A program made the position numbers and the translations under genes. A stretch of 64,000 nucleotides of DNA, taken from contig CADCFN010000002.1 of NCBI GenBank assembly GCA_902800715.1, positions 1-64,000 of the forward strand. Direction: 5' to 3'. Numbering within the stretch: the first letter of the stretch is position 1; each line of letters opens with the position of its first letter. Under the pieces are notes generated by a model, which worked only from the letters and a program-made list of their open reading frames with translations, was not told the DNA's origin and did no database searches. The DNA is from an uncultured Bacteroidales bacterium (GTDB taxonomy: Bacteria; Bacteroidota; Bacteroidia; Bacteroidales; Muribaculaceae). Below are positions 7,894 through 53,504 of this stretch, one piece after another.

Positions 7894-9309
7894 TTAGAAG
7901 TAGAAGTCGCGCTTGCCGGCAGCGATTTCCTGGATATGCTGGCCTGCGATTTCGCGAACTCGTTGGTTGGTAATCTTTGCCAATTCCTTTTCTATCAAGG
8001 CATTGCCCTTGACGATAGTGTCCTCGCTGGCGAAGTCCATGAGATATTCCTTGAGCGTCATCAGTGCATTGGGCGTGCAGATGTCGCCAATCTTACCTGC
8101 TTTGCACAATTCCATGAAGCGGTCGCCTGTGCGGCCCGAACGGTAGCATGCGGTGCAGAAGCTGGGCAGGTAACCGATAGACAGCAGCCAGTTGATGACC
8201 TCGTCGAGGGTGCGCGTGTCGCTCACGTCGAACTGTGCCGTCTCGTCGTGGCGTTCTACCGTGGTGTAGCCGCCCACGCTGGTGCGGCTGCCGCCACTGA
8301 TTTGGGAAACGCCCAGGTCAAGCACCTTGGCGCGTACGCTCTGGCTCTCGCGGGTAGAGATAATCATGCCGGTATAGGGCACTGCAAGACGGATGACGGC
8401 GATGATGCGGCAGAAGATTTCGTCGGGCAGCACGTCGGGGAACTCGTCGAGGGTGATGTCCTCGGCAGGGCAGATGCGCGGCACGCTGATGGTGTGAGGT
8501 CCCACACCGAACTTGGCCTCGAGGTGCTCGGCGTGCATCAACAGTCCCACGAAGTCATAGCGGTAGGTCGTCAAGCCATACAGAACGCCGATGCCCACGT
8601 CGTCGCAGCCACCCATCTGGGCACGGTCCATGGCCTCGGTGTGGTAGCAGTAGTCGCTCTTGGGTCCCGTGGGATGCAGGGTCTCGTAGTTCTTGCGGTT
8701 GTAGGTCTCTTGGAACAGGATATAGGTGCCGATACCTGCGGCCTTCAGCTTCTCGTAGGCCTCGACTGTGGTAGCGGCTATATTCACGTTCAAGCGGCGG
8801 ATTTCGCCATTGCCCACCTTAGTGTTATAAATTGTGTGGATAGACTCCAGAATATACTCAAGCGGGTTCATCACGGGGTGCTCACCAGCCTCGAGGGCGA
8901 TGCGCTTGTGGCCCATCTTGACCAAGGCTTCGACTTCGGCACGGATTTCGTCCTGAGAGAGTTTCTTGCGGGGAATGGTCTTGTTTTTGGCATGGTAGGG
9001 ACAGTAAACGCACCCGTTGATGCAGTAATTGGACAGGTACAGCGGTGCGAACATCACGATGCGGTTGCCGTAGAAGCGGCGCTTCACATCTTTGGCAAGC
9101 TGCTCATAGCGCTCAATCAGGTCCGGTTGGTCGCAGTCAAGCAGCACGGCAGCCTCACGGTGGGTCAAGCCCTTGCATTTGGCTGCTTTTTCTATAATCT
9201 CCTCAATCAGAGCACGATTGCTCTTATTCTTCTCAGCGTAGGCTAAGGTTTCCAGTATCTCACTGTCGTCGATGAACTCATCGGCATGGTTTGACTTGAC
9301 GTTATACAT
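7894..9309 (-). CDS. hydG: [FeFe] hydrogenase maturase HydG, radical SAM tyrosine lyase
   Basis: Makes CO and cyanide from tyrosine on an iron centre for the H-cluster 2Fe subunit. The radical-SAM motif C-x3-C-x2-C is in NYCINGCVYCPYH (about residues 86-98), and the C-terminal auxiliary-cluster motif is CTACYRSGRTGDRFM followed by a third Cys, which separates HydG from ThiH. The chosen start (MYNVKSNHAD) gives 471 residues, the usual family size; an in-frame ATG 22 codons upstream would place the start before the predicted promoter and is rejected. It is the first gene of a hydG-hydF unit. No hydE was found in the window. Confidence 0.96.
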   Translation of the reverse strand: MYNVKSNHADEFIDDSEILETLAYAEKNKSNRALIEEIIEKAAKCKGLTHREAAVLLDCDQPDLIERYEQLAKDVKRRFYGNRIVMFAPLYLSNYCINGCVYCPYHAKNKTIPRKKLSQDEIRAEVEALVKMGHKRIALEAGEHPVMNPLEYILESIHTIYNTKVGNGEIRRLNVNIAATTVEAYEKLKAAGIGTYILFQETYNRKNYETLHPTGPKSDYCYHTEAMDRAQMGGCDDVGIGVLYGLTTYRYDFVGLLMHAEHLEAKFGVGPHTISVPRICPAEDITLDEFPDVLPDEIFCRIIAVIRLAVPYTGMIISTRESQSVRAKVLDLGVSQISGGSRTSVGGYTTVERHDETAQFDVSDTRTLDEVINWLLSIGYLPSFCTACYRSGRTGDRFMELCKAGKIGDICTPNALMTLKEYLMDFASEDTIVKGNALIEKELAKITNQRVREIAGQHIQEIAAGKRDFYF

Positions 9310-15643: not shown

Positions 15644-15678
15644 GTTCTAGTTTTTAGTATTCGGTTTTTGGTTTTCAG
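15644..15678 (-). repeat. Heptamer array upstream of buk
   Basis: Five consecutive 7-bp units, on the plus strand GTTCTAG-TTTTTAG-TATTCGG-TTTTTGG-TTTTCAG, ending two bases before the buk ATG. On the buk sense strand they read CTGAAAA-like. Confidence 0.7.
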
Positions 15679-15705
15679 TTTGTGCTAGTGTCTTGAAAAT
15701 AGACC

Positions 15706-24064: not shown

Positions 24065-24127
24065 ACCTCTTAACTTTAACCTCTAACCTCTAACCTCTAA
24101 CCTTTAACCTTTAACCTTTAAACTATA
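24065..24127 (-). repeat. Heptamer array between the mgtC-like gene and the antiporter gene
   Basis: Nine 7-bp units on the plus strand: ACCTCTT, AACTTTA, ACCTCTA three times, ACCTTTA three times, AACTATA. It lies upstream of the antiporter start codon and reads TAAAGGT/TAGAGGT on the sense strand. It looks telomere-like, but is short and internal. Confidence 0.88.
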
Positions 24128-24134
24128 AACTCCC

Positions 24135-24856: not shown

Positions 24857-24870
24857 ATGTTAGTTTTCAG
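24857..24870 (-). repeat. Short heptamer pair upstream of the mgtC-like gene
   Basis: ATGTTAG-TTTTCAG on the plus strand, in 7-base phase and six bases before the start codon; the TTTTCAG unit is the same as in the lpxA, buk and prfA arrays. Too short to stand alone; listed because of that match. Confidence 0.4.
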
Positions 24871-24878
24871 TTTTACCG

Positions 24879-34849: not shown

Positions 34850-34905
34850 TTCAAGTCAAGAAAATCGACTATTAAGGAATGCCCTTCATGGTGCATCCGC
34901 ATTGG

Positions 34906-34933
34906 GTAGAGACGCAAAACCTTGCGTCTCTAC
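34906..34933. repeat. Dispersed palindromic repeat, copy 1
   Basis: A perfect 12-bp inverted repeat, GTAGAGACGCAA / TTGCGTCTCTAC, around loop AACC, between the convergent dnaA and exonuclease genes. A diverged copy is at 52027-52052. It could act as a terminator here but has no T-tract. Confidence 0.85.
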
Positions 34934-34972
34934 TGCTTTCATGCGATAACTCTATCAGTTGTCGGATTCTGT

Positions 34973-40953: not shown

Positions 40954-41727
40954 TCAGGGCTTGCGGACGATGCCGCGTTTGCTGGCGCGTACGAAGTCGA
41001 TGATGATGTCGCGTTCAGGGCTGGCGGGCAGTTTGACGGCCTCTTCTAGTGACTGGGTGATATTGAGACCCGAGTCGTAGATGGTGCGGTAAACGTCGGC
41101 AATGGCATCAATCTGCTCGCTGGTGTAGCCGCGGCGGTGCAGGCCCACCTTGTTCACGCCCTCATAGGCGATGGGGTAGCGAGCCGCCATGCAATAGGGT
41201 GGGATGTCTTTGTTAACCAAGGCGCCACCCTGAATCATCACGTGGCAACCAATCTGGGTGAACTGGTGAACGAGAGCGCCGCCACCGATGATGGCCCAGT
41301 CACCGGCTACCACTTCGCCAGCCAGCTGAGCAGAGTTGGACATGATGACATGGTCACCGACCACGCAATCGTGTGCCACATGGCAGTAGGCCATGATTAG
41401 GCAGTTGTTGCCCACAACGGTCTTGCCCTTGGAAGCGGTACCGCGGTGAATGGTGACAAACTCACGGATGACCGTGTTGTCGCCGATGATGGCCACGGTA
41501 TCTTCTCCCTGGAATTTCAGGTCTTGAGGCACATCGCCAACCACAGCATTGGCATGTATATGGCAGTTCTTGCCGATGCGCGCACCACTGCGCACTACGG
41601 CTCCGCTATCGATGATGGTGCCGTCACCAATCTCGACATTGGCATCGATGGTCACAAACGGACCGATTTTCACGTTTTCCCCAATTTTAGCGTCAGGGTG
41701 AACGACGGCAAACTGATGGATATCCAT
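40954..41727 (-). CDS. lpxA: UDP-GlcNAc acyltransferase LpxA
   Basis: Catalyses the first step of lipid A synthesis in the cytoplasm. 257 residues of left-handed beta-helix hexapeptide repeats (IGENVKIGPFVTID, IGDGTIIDSGAVV, IGKNCHI) with the catalytic His in MAYCHVAHDC (about residue 122), the IHRGT substrate loop and a C-terminal helical domain (HRRGYTSEQIDAI). Last gene of the lpxD-lpxC/fabZ-lpxA group. Its ATG is preceded, two bases away, by an 11-unit heptamer array in which no promoter box is visible. Confidence 0.95.
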   Translation of the reverse strand: MDIHQFAVVHPDAKIGENVKIGPFVTIDANVEIGDGTIIDSGAVVRSGARIGKNCHIHANAVVGDVPQDLKFQGEDTVAIIGDNTVIREFVTIHRGTASKGKTVVGNNCLIMAYCHVAHDCVVGDHVIMSNSAQLAGEVVAGDWAIIGGGALVHQFTQIGCHVMIQGGALVNKDIPPYCMAARYPIAYEGVNKVGLHRRGYTSEQIDAIADVYRTIYDSGLNITQSLEEAVKLPASPERDIIIDFVRASKRGIVRKP

Positions 41728-41729
41728 AT

Positions 41730-41806
41730 TTTTTAGTTTTCAGTTTTCAGTTGTCAGTTTTCAGTTTTCAGTTGTCGGTTGTCAGTTGTCAGTTGTCAGT
41801 TTTCGG
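41730..41806 (-). repeat. Eleven-unit heptamer array upstream of lpxA
   Basis: Eleven consecutive 7-bp units (TTTTTAG, TTTTCAG, TTTTCAG, TTGTCAG and variants ending CAG or CGG on the plus strand), 77 bases with no break in phase. It fills most of the lpxC/fabZ-lpxA gap and abuts the lpxA ATG; on the sense strand it reads CTGAAAA/CTGACAA. Confidence 0.92.
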
Positions 41807-41855
41807 TCGTTTGCGGCATCCGCTTTCAACCGAATCAGAAAACTGTAAAACTCAG

Positions 41856-43250: not shown

Positions 43251-43257
43251 TATTTTG

Positions 43258-43285
43258 TAAGCTGTAAGCTATCAGCTGTGAGCCT
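43258..43285 (-). repeat. Heptamer array upstream of lpxC/fabZ
   Basis: Four 7-bp units TAAGCTG, TAAGCTA, TCAGCTG, TGAGCCT (plus strand), seven bases before the lpxC ATG and just after the lpxD stop. A different unit from the CTGAAAA class, but the same period and position. Confidence 0.65.
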
Positions 43286-44369: not shown

Positions 44370-44377
44370 CGAAAAAG

Positions 44378-44426
44378 TTTCTAGTTTCTAGTCCTTTATC
44401 CCTAGTTTTTACTCTCCGGTCCCTAG
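44378..44426 (-). repeat. Heptamer array upstream of the lpxD promoter
   Basis: Seven 7-bp units in phase on the plus strand: TTTCTAG, TTTCTAG, TCCTTTA, TCCCTAG, TTTTTAC, TCTCCGG, TCCCTAG. It begins eight bases upstream of the -7 box and therefore covers the -33 region. Confidence 0.8.
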
Positions 44427-44890: not shown

Positions 44891-44918
44891 ATTAAAAATC
44901 AACTATTAACTTTTAACT
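44891..44918 (-). repeat. Heptamer array upstream of the thioredoxin gene
   Basis: Four 7-bp units ATTAAAA, ATCAACT, ATTAACT, TTTAACT (plus strand), overlapping the stop codon of the preceding gene. The unit resembles the TAAAGGT/TTAACCT class of the antiporter gap. Confidence 0.55.
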
Positions 44919-45518
44919 AACCAGCTTTCCCTTGCCTTGACGGGTAATCTCCGGTTCACCACTGGTGCAGTCCACGATGGTCGAGGGCATGAGTTGGCCA
45001 CGACCGGCATCGATGACGATATCGACTTGAGACTCAAATGCTTCGGCCATCAATCCGGGCTCGCAACGGTAGTCCTCGTCATCACCAGGCACCGATGTCG
45101 TCAGGATGGGGCCACCCAGCGTGCGGACGATGGACAAAGCAATCTCGTTGTCAGGGATACGGATGCCCACGGTGCGGCGCCCCTTAAACGCCTTGGGCAG
45201 TTTCGACAGGGCGGGGAAGATGAAAGTAAACGGACCAGGCAGGTTGGCTTTCATCAGTCTGAACTGGGCGTTGTCAAACTTGGCGAACTGTGCCACCTGA
45301 GAGATGTCGTCACAGATGATGGACAGGTTGGTCTTGGCCGATTTCATCTCCTTCATGGAGCAGATGCGCTCGATGGCTTGATTGTTGAGTGCGTCACAGC
45401 CCAGAGCGTAAACGGTGTCGGTAGGGTAGATGATGAGTCCGCCGTCCTTGAGGGTCTCAACCACCTGATCGATGTAGCGTTGATTGATGTTTTTTTCAAT
45501 AATCTGTAATACTTCCAT
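44913..45518 (-). CDS. Sua5/YciO/YrdC-family protein (threonylcarbamoyl-AMP synthase-like)
   Basis: 201 residues, cytoplasmic, with the family core YPTDTVYALGCDA (about 32-44), KSAKTNLSIIC, LPGPFTFI and RRTVGIRIPDN. True TsaC/Sua5 enzymes make threonylcarbamoyl-AMP for the t6A modification of tRNA; short YciO-type paralogs have an uncertain role and cannot be told apart by eye here. It lies 12 bases after a B3/4-domain gene, whose fold occurs in phenylalanyl-tRNA synthetase, so a shared tRNA-related theme is possible. Confidence 0.85.
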   Translation of the reverse strand: MEVLQIIEKNINQRYIDQVVETLKDGGLIIYPTDTVYALGCDALNNQAIERICSMKEMKSAKTNLSIICDDISQVAQFAKFDNAQFRLMKANLPGPFTFIFPALSKLPKAFKGRRTVGIRIPDNEIALSIVRTLGGPILTTSVPGDDEDYRCEPGLMAEAFESQVDIVIDAGRGQLMPSTIVDCTSGEPEITRQGKGKLVS

Positions 45519-52002: not shown

Positions 52003-52026
52003 GTAAAAAGTCATCAGTTTCGCTTT

Positions 52027-52052
52027 GTAGAGACACAAAATCTTGCGTCTCT
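52027..52052. repeat. Dispersed palindromic repeat, copy 2
   Basis: GTAGAGACACAA-AATC-TTGCGTCTCT: the same element as at 34906-34933, with one arm substitution and a shortened right arm. It lies between two divergent genes. Confidence 0.75.
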
Positions 52053-52073
52053 TAGGGACTTTCCCTAACTTTG
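52044..52073 (+). promoter_or_regulatory. Promoter of the metallophosphoesterase gene, -33 box inside a palindromic repeat
   Basis: TTG within the repeat's right arm (plus 52043-52045), a 20-base spacer and TAACTTTG at 52066-52073. The transcription start is expected about five bases before the ATG. Confidence 0.65.
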
Positions 52074-53458: not shown

Positions 53459-53468
53459 TCATAAAAAA

Positions 53469-53496
53469 CTGAAAACTGTCAACCGAAAACTGACAA
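53469..53496 (+). repeat. Heptamer array upstream of the prfA promoter
   Basis: Four 7-bp units CTGAAAA, CTGTCAA, CCGAAAA, CTGACAA on the plus strand, ending eight bases before the -7 box. These are the same units as at lpxA and lie in the same orientation relative to the gene. Confidence 0.78.
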
Positions 53497-53504
53497 CTTT
53501 ATAC

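Follow-up and report, generated by a model that had tools for sequence, protein, structure and literature searches.

The short tandemly repeated repetitive (STRR) heptamers of cyanobacteria are 7-bp tandem units located in non-coding DNA. The nearest precedent for the arrays described here, and a named one where the preliminary description of this DNA knew of none, is the TAACTGA repeats of Beggiatoaceae, Cyanobacteria and five Bacteroidetes (MacGregor, 2015; PMC4679880). The sections of that report used here present them as intergenic heptamers that mostly read forward and sit immediately ahead of start codons, with 7-nt indels between two close Cyanothece strains and related heptamers rarely or never repeated in the source genome; they already hint at arrays over the ends of open reading frames and past a stop (PMC4679880). 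The arrays studied here resemble them in being heptameric, intergenic, placed before starts and found in a group, the Bacteroidetes, that the TAACTGA repeats include, and the units at lpxA, AAACTGA and CAACTGA, are each one base off TAACTGA. A further likeness is to the REP/BIME elements with RAYT, which the part of the source used here portrays as small dispersed intergenic palindromes (PMC3733652).

The window, the whole stretch of 64,000 nucleotides that was analysed, comes from the genome of an uncultured bacterium (G000; 3.30 Mb in 27 contigs, 88.9% complete) whose nearest named relatives are metagenome-assembled genomes, many from the rumen, labeled Muribaculaceae, Prevotellaceae, Porphyromonadaceae or Bacteroidales. 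We scored each of the eight array gaps of the window at lag 7 against 1000 dinucleotide-preserving shuffles and ran Tandem Repeats Finder (TRF), which returned period 7 at 41730-41804 (10.7 copies), 24065-24132 (9.7 copies), 15649-15681, 43256-43283, 44376-44392, 44901-44919 and 53465-53498. The features, each with the evidence and the number of shuffles that matched its score, are as follows.

15645-15681, minus strand: array in the intergenic gap ahead of buk, with AACT polarity as before a start (TRF; 1/1000 shuffles; length differs by 7 bp from that in the sister species)
24065-24132, minus strand: array between the mgtC-like stop and the antiporter start, filling most of the gap, AGGTTAA/AGGTTAG in the gene sense (TRF; 0/1000)
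24857-24874, minus strand: two-unit remnant before the mgtC-like start in a divergent gap (weak, 47/1000; present in the sister)
41727-41810, minus strand: lpxA array of about 11 heptads, AACTGAA/AACTGAC in the lpxA sense, ending at the lpxA start codon (TRF; 0/1000)
41813-41823, no strand assigned: GCGGCATCCGC as read on the plus strand, the tip between both arms at lpxA, with the dispersed core of the family (sequence; family copies)
41824-41855, minus strand: short partner arm past the lpxC/fabZ stop, AGTT polarity in the gene sense (sequence; polarity rule)
43256-43283, minus strand: array of AGCTTAC units before the lpxC/fabZ start (TRF; 0/1000)
44376-44426, minus strand: array ahead of lpxD and of its promoter-like box TAnnTTTG, with the strongest part, of AACTAGA units, at 44376-44392 (TRF; 0/1000; near-identical in the sister)
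44898-44918, minus strand: array of AGTTAAT units between the threonylcarbamoyladenylate synthase and thioredoxin genes (TRF; 2/1000; 28 bp longer in the sister)
53465-53498, plus strand: array upstream of prfA and its promoter-like box (TRF; 0/1000; same length in the sister)

Seven of the eight arrays for which strict 7-base phase had been claimed thus outscore their shuffles, but the mgtC-like pair is weak. Significance (at most 1 in 100 shuffles) was reached at lag 7 in 7/35 window gaps, at lag 9 in 4/35 and at lag 14, a multiple of 7, in 5/35, with 0-2 gaps at every other lag from 4 to 13. Neighboring gene function was considered for the window arrays, and the earlier labels hold: butyrate kinase, CPA2-type antiporter, MgtC family, LpxA, bifunctional LpxC/FabZ, LpxD, thioredoxin and release factor RF1. 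The window gave no Rfam match at the gathering score.

Period 7 also exceeds the shuffled level in gaps well beyond the window. Genes were called with a codon-usage script in place of annotation, so that start sites and some gap ends are approximate, and gaps of 20-600 bp were used unless stated. Across the window and 38 further stretches of G000 (473 gaps and 730 kb of coding sequence, some stretches having been placed near known matches), a lag-7 segment was detected in 47 gaps, compared with 8 at lag 14, 6 at lag 9 and 0-2 at any remaining lag between 4 and 21; when each gap was shuffled three times, a single lag-7 case appeared in total. Stretches chosen blind contained 18 in 266 gaps (197 codirectional, 37 convergent and 32 divergent). 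No lag-7 segment was found in the 730 kb of coding sequence. The 80 loci around lpxC in related genomes gave 34 segments in 569 gaps, none in five shuffles and one in 846 kb of coding sequence. The claim that arrays never lie inside a gene is not borne out at the thioredoxin array (44898-44918), which overlaps the gene for threonylcarbamoyladenylate synthase (44913-45518) at its stop codon.

Arrays are commoner in the genus of G000 than in the other genera sampled, with genera delimited from lpxC/fabZ identity (loci L009-L042, at least 92%, taken as the same genus; L043-L088 as others). Stretches from 19 other genera of the family held 2 lag-7 segments in 140 gaps (20 stretches, one of only 387 bases), and exact 7-nt tandem pairs in gaps numbered 294 against 16 in shuffles for the genus set and 10 against 10.8 for the other genera. 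Within the genus, four of nine sampled members had no array in the 11-40 kb seen of each (G060, G079, G109 and G135). Outside arrays, two-unit 7-nt pairs were only twofold in excess (26 versus 13.8 in shuffles) and 8-, 9- and 10-nt pairs likewise exceeded shuffles, so birth by simple 7-nt duplication is nothing special. A general mutational bias toward 7 nt was rejected on the same excess of 8-10-nt pairs and because indels outside arrays between the window and its sister species showed, by eye, no excess of 7, although a net 7 separates the two species in one convergent gap that has no array. In another genus (G012 and G056; loci L142, L144, L146, L147 and L150) periods other than 7 occur as well: gaps there hold arrays of period 8 (CTCCTTTA) and period 9 (TTCCCGAAA), in some cases next to heptads of AACTGAA or AACTAGA.

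The unit consists of a four-letter core and a variable triplet. Among 256 arrays of the genus, 178 have AACT (or AGTT) in the consensus unit, followed by 26 different triplets. Letters depart from the consensus of their own array least in the ACT columns (second A 15%, C 12%, T 16%) and more in the first A (22%) and the triplet (27, 21 and 33%). The 81 arrays of AACTGA kind show the contrast sharply (ACT 12.5, 11.7 and 14.2% versus triplet 25.6, 17.7 and 39.0%) and the 97 with other triplets less so (17.3, 13.0 and 17.7% versus 28.9, 23.5 and 27.3%). The same columns stay low with anchors that overlap AACTG units, and the contrast is weak or absent with GTTA, ATTA, TAAA and CTAA. Low variability of the ACT columns counts against plain neutral decay, which does not predict it. 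Five consecutive AGTTNNN units match 51/61 genomes of the genus and the reversed pattern 8/61 (counted from the matches listed); across Bacteroidota the figures are 99/296 genomes (51/140 genera) and about 60 by eye, so AGTT is less special among heptad arrays outside the genus. Three AACTGAN units match 11/149 genomes of the family and 43/395 of the phylum.

All arrays had been placed directly upstream of a start codon or promoter, which captures only half of how they lie. The array at 24065-24132 spans most of a stop-to-start gap, the thioredoxin array overlaps a stop, and of the 180 genus arrays that carry one of AACT and AGTT (the other 76 have neither or both) the closest gene end is a stop for 75 and a start for 105. 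Their orientation follows one rule: AGTT is directed outward from the nearest gene end in 157 arrays and not in 23. The ratio of outward to other arrays is 88:2 on the start side and 47:15 on the stop side of codirectional gaps, 11:2 in convergent and 11:4 in divergent gaps, and several of the 15 stop-side exceptions occupy the entire gap. Codirectional gaps of G000 carry phased AACT mainly in the downstream half, before the start (40, versus 3 upstream), and phased AGTT in the upstream half, after the stop (34 versus 0). Non-array gaps after stops contain A at 0.305 and T at 0.300, so base composition does not account for the post-stop polarity. The rule is symmetric about the gap, and orientation alone cannot separate gene sense from palindromy.

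Gene ends differ in how they meet the arrays. With a lax threshold, 67 arrays begin at most 3 nt from a stop codon. Their repeat phase agrees with that codon at 1.96 of its 3 letters, versus 0.64-1.18 at other rotations; the codon is TAG in 24/67 compared with 163/990, and the four bases before the stop also match the array (1.64 versus 1.07, exceeding all 50 controls). Continuity into the start codon was absent in 67 start-touching arrays and was rejected. Arrays thus run over stop codons and halt at starts. The Bacteroidota -7 box, TAnnTTTG, occurs in 2/56 array gaps of 50-150 bp and in 38/149 other codirectional gaps, which suggests that most array gaps of this size are probably inside operons.

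Equal frequency between convergent genes had been named as evidence against an array family of gene-upstream gaps. In the blind stretches arrays of any unit do occur about as often there (4/37 convergent, 12/197 codirectional and 2/32 divergent gaps), but the AACTGA family that includes lpxA does not: BLAST places 54 matches to it in the genome, distributed over 40 gaps of which 38 are codirectional, 2 divergent and none convergent, with none in genes and a background codirectional share of 197/266. A codirectional-only rule for arrays of any unit, seen in the first stretches (33/190 versus 1/43 divergent and 1/40 convergent), was abandoned, since these had partly been placed near matches and the pattern was gone in blind gaps.

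Where both arms are present, as in 32 gaps of G000, the arrays often form palindromes. The median RNA folding z reached -5.0 in the 29 of these gaps no longer than 330 bp, compared with -1.9 where a single arm is present (37 gaps) and -1.1 where there is no array (60 gaps). Locus L091 holds at 8284 a perfect 30-bp inverted repeat, unit variants included. Matching of left and right units beyond polarity is weak (p 0.035 over all 32 gaps, p 0.11 over the 14 that lack the core). Selection for RNA hairpins was rejected, the stems showing no wobble bias (58 G.U versus 74 A.C pairs, p 0.19) in 55 of 116 codirectional array gaps of this and related genomes, at a stem score that 6/116 shuffled and 33/149 non-array gaps also reached. 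Between the arms lies a dispersed core. CAGCGGCATYCGC has 18 exact copies in the genome, 16 between arms in codirectional gaps and 2 in genes; with one mismatch there are 37 matches but also 22 for the reversed control, so the case for the core is its exact gap copies. Left arms of differing unit share a GGCATC(CGC) core and an AACTGA right arm, and L011 carries an identical cassette in two adjacent gaps. Many arrays are single-armed and lack the core, and some elements have arms of differing unit.

Other dispersed elements occur in the same genomes. The G000 genome has a gene for a RAYT-like Y1 transposase (roughly 330 aa) and one further, short Y1 match, at L199 (G000:C5, about 74914-75162) and L200 (G000:C3, about 135042-135149); both Y1_Tnp matches adjoin a different palindrome, GCCGTGGC..GCCACGGC, head-to-tail in L200, and neither locus (about 3 kb each) has lag-7 arrays. 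This REP-RAYT-like family is separate from the heptads, and an origin of the arrays in REP/RAYT was rejected because the Y1 genes sit with different palindromes. The two repeat families can adjoin, as GC-rich palindromes of GCCGTGGC..GCCACGGC type stand beside AACTATT-type arrays in two gaps of L206 (1383-1891 and 6704-6959). Palindromes of the type GTAGAGACGCAAAAyCTTGCGTCTCTAC, possibly another dispersed family, lie in one convergent and one divergent gap of the window (34905-34940 and 52025-52055), nearly conserved in the sister. A second dispersed element, of about four CTAAACT heptads with several copies joined to GCGAGCGCAGCGAGCAT, is found also in convergent and divergent gaps (L238 6485-7295 and 10496-10595; L240 19065-19398).

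In the sister species G149 (89-93% nucleotide identity in long matches), every one of the window's eight array gaps is likewise occupied by an array, so turnover is not visible at this distance. Array lengths, whose comparison between strains the preliminary description had proposed, differ here between species by 7 (buk), 42 (lpxA) and 28 (thioredoxin) and by 0 at lpxC, lpxD and prfA; the antiporter and mgtC gaps differ by 1 and 3 at their edges, one convergent gap by about 515 bp, and three other gaps were not comparable. Among 33-35 members of the genus, by contrast, one orthologous operon gap carries AGTTAAC, GAATTAG, AGATAAG, TTAGGTA, AGTTAGA or CAACTGA units, or none. Mapped on a quick lpxC tree, with a lax threshold that admits a few doubtful arrays, array presence changed 10 times for 11 array-bearing of 33 species in the synthase-thioredoxin gap, 9 for 11 of 35 in lpxD-lpxC, 9 for 10 of 35 in lpxC-lpxA and 3 for 3 of 33 in the gap before the synthase gene. 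Orthologous gaps acquire different units almost independently. Within genomes, units are shared: 9.5% of array pairs in one genome have a common unit versus 3.0% between genomes (permutation p 0.002, G000 left out), and 10.0% in G000. By eye we noticed no target duplication or clean empty site, and the gap sequence of array-free relatives is mostly unrelated.

We put at about an even chance the reading that these arrays are heptad satellites of gene gaps, neutral or mildly selfish, and not regulators of the adjoining genes. Arrays, most commonly of AACTNNN (AGTTNNN on the other strand), would arise in intergenic DNA, grow, be copied and disappear again, chiefly where the gap has no promoter box. 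Length would change in whole 7-nt units by slippage or unequal exchange; slippage in steps of 7, as proposed earlier, is supported by the differences of 7, 28 and 42 between the two sisters. The arm palindromes, one perfect over 30 bp, probably formed by template switching between arms, which the part of the source used here treats as an established mutation process that makes and repairs inverted repeats (PMC8794818). Units and composite cassettes (left array, GGCATCCGC core and AACTGA right array) are shared between gaps of one genome and were presumably copied there. Survival would be confined to sites where codons and promoters remain unbroken, consistent with the location of the arrays in promoterless gaps and at gene ends in phase with the stop.

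The arrays could instead be selected multi-copy binding platforms, a protein reading AACT/AGTT every 7 nt, whether in DNA or in the leader preceding the next gene, and so tuning translation or mRNA life, as MacGregor proposed for TAACTGA. The AACT found in 178/256 arrays with its least variable columns, the 88:2 polarity before starts, the scarcity of promoter boxes, which probably puts the arrays within mRNA, and the forward position before starts in Beggiatoaceae and Flexibacter, as given in the portion of that report used here (PMC4679880), all favor it. We still find it rather unlikely, because most orthologous genes of relatives have no array or other units, the RNA word before starts (AACU) is not the one after stops (AGUU), stems have no G.U excess, Rfam gave no match in the window, and convergent gaps of the blind stretches bear arrays as often. 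A gene-specific form of the selected spacer or binding site proposed earlier finds no support in the same orthologous gaps (33-35 species), where changes are about as many as array-bearing species. Transposase-moved cassettes of MITE or REP kind, with heptad arms as inverted ends, would explain the dispersed core, the composite cassettes (as in the adjacent gaps of L011) and the sharing of units within genomes, and to this extent the mobile-element footprint suggested earlier stands in its copy-and-spread part, through CAGCGGCATYCGC and unit sharing. Against such cassettes, no enzyme or insertion junction was found for the arrays, no target duplication or clean empty site was noticed by eye, arms can differ in unit, many arrays are one-armed and coreless, and both Y1_Tnp matches belong with GCCGTGGC..GCCACGGC in 3-kb loci free of lag-7 arrays. 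We therefore judge such mobile palindromes unlikely.

Heptad satellites also have to be weighed against polymerase slippage that is strictly local, has a 7-nt step of its own and involves no copying between sites. One survey reported that, for most of the genomes it covered, heptanucleotides formed the commonest class of long simple repeats, and a 7-nt polymerase contact was suggested (Mrazek, 2007, as relayed in the sections of PMC4679880 used here); the stop-codon phase lock fits seeding at gene ends, and lengths change in sevens. Yet units are shared within genomes at about threefold the between-genome rate, a common core exists, gaps of other genera lack an excess of exact 7-nt pairs and a fixed four-letter core over 26 triplets is unexpected, which weakens this reading and makes it improbable. 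A telomerase-like reverse transcriptase, as in DRT10, could write heptads from an RNA template: DRT10, in the part of the source used here, makes tandem-repeat DNA by short-anchor re-annealing (PMC12632851), and a conserved 4-mer beside a variable 3-mer would resemble anchor and template. RVT_1 matches occur in 23/62 genomes, including some array-rich ones (G017, G556, G557, G586 and G594), but not in array-rich G561, G563, G584, G585 and G591, whereas the single-contig G609 has three and no AGTT heptad match; many different units in one genome also speak against a template. G000 gave no RVT_1 match (in an assembly 88.9% complete, where diverged enzymes could escape), and such an enzyme was rejected as the writer here as far as the genome is assembled; we hold the idea to be extremely improbable. 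A dedicated copying activity, re-annealing a strand end at AGTT/AACT every 7 bases, error-tolerant at the other three and starting at gene boundaries, seems quite unlikely to us. It would amount to a bacterial satellite-writing system with an anchor rule, patchy over Bacteroidota, whose arrays point outward from genes and meet at the core, and the biased core and post-stop polarity are the best reason to keep seeking a writer or reader of the arrays.

From scattered reports of heptamer repeats the analysis arrives at rules that can be tested: a fixed four-letter core, a fixed polarity in the gap, a stop-codon phase and fast turnover. Why seven, and by what agent the arrays are copied, become tractable questions through strain resequencing in one genus. 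Such arrays should not be taken for promoters or leader elements of the next gene.

Set against known systems, the arrays share period 7 and tandem 7-nt repetition beyond chance with the long simple heptanucleotide repeats explained by slippage (Mrazek, 2007, via PMC4679880), although the summary in the portion of PMC4679880 used here makes no mention of polarity, conserved core or composite cassettes. They differ from REP/BIME elements in their heptad arms of variable length and lack of G.U excess, where the part of PMC3733652 used here notes frequent GT pairs, and the RAYT-like gene of this genome accompanies a different palindrome and not the heptads. Searches of the open-access literature, by titles and abstract openings, gave no description of an AACT core, two-sided polarity, palindromes or stop-codon phase. 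Relative to TAACTGA, the lpxA array has another unit (AAACTGA/CAACTGA), and TAACTGA itself occurs in arrays of genus relatives such as G040 and G122 and in at least one place in G000. The forward position before starts recurs here (88:2 on the start side), yet 75/180 arrays lie nearest a stop. Unlike in the TAACTGA genome, related heptamers are repeated, with 26 triplets after AACT in the genus set and several units in one genome. The arrays differ further in their four-letter core with a variable triplet, in the common arrays of opposite orientation after stops, in the change of unit between orthologous gaps, in the palindromes around a GC-rich core and in their phase with stop codons.
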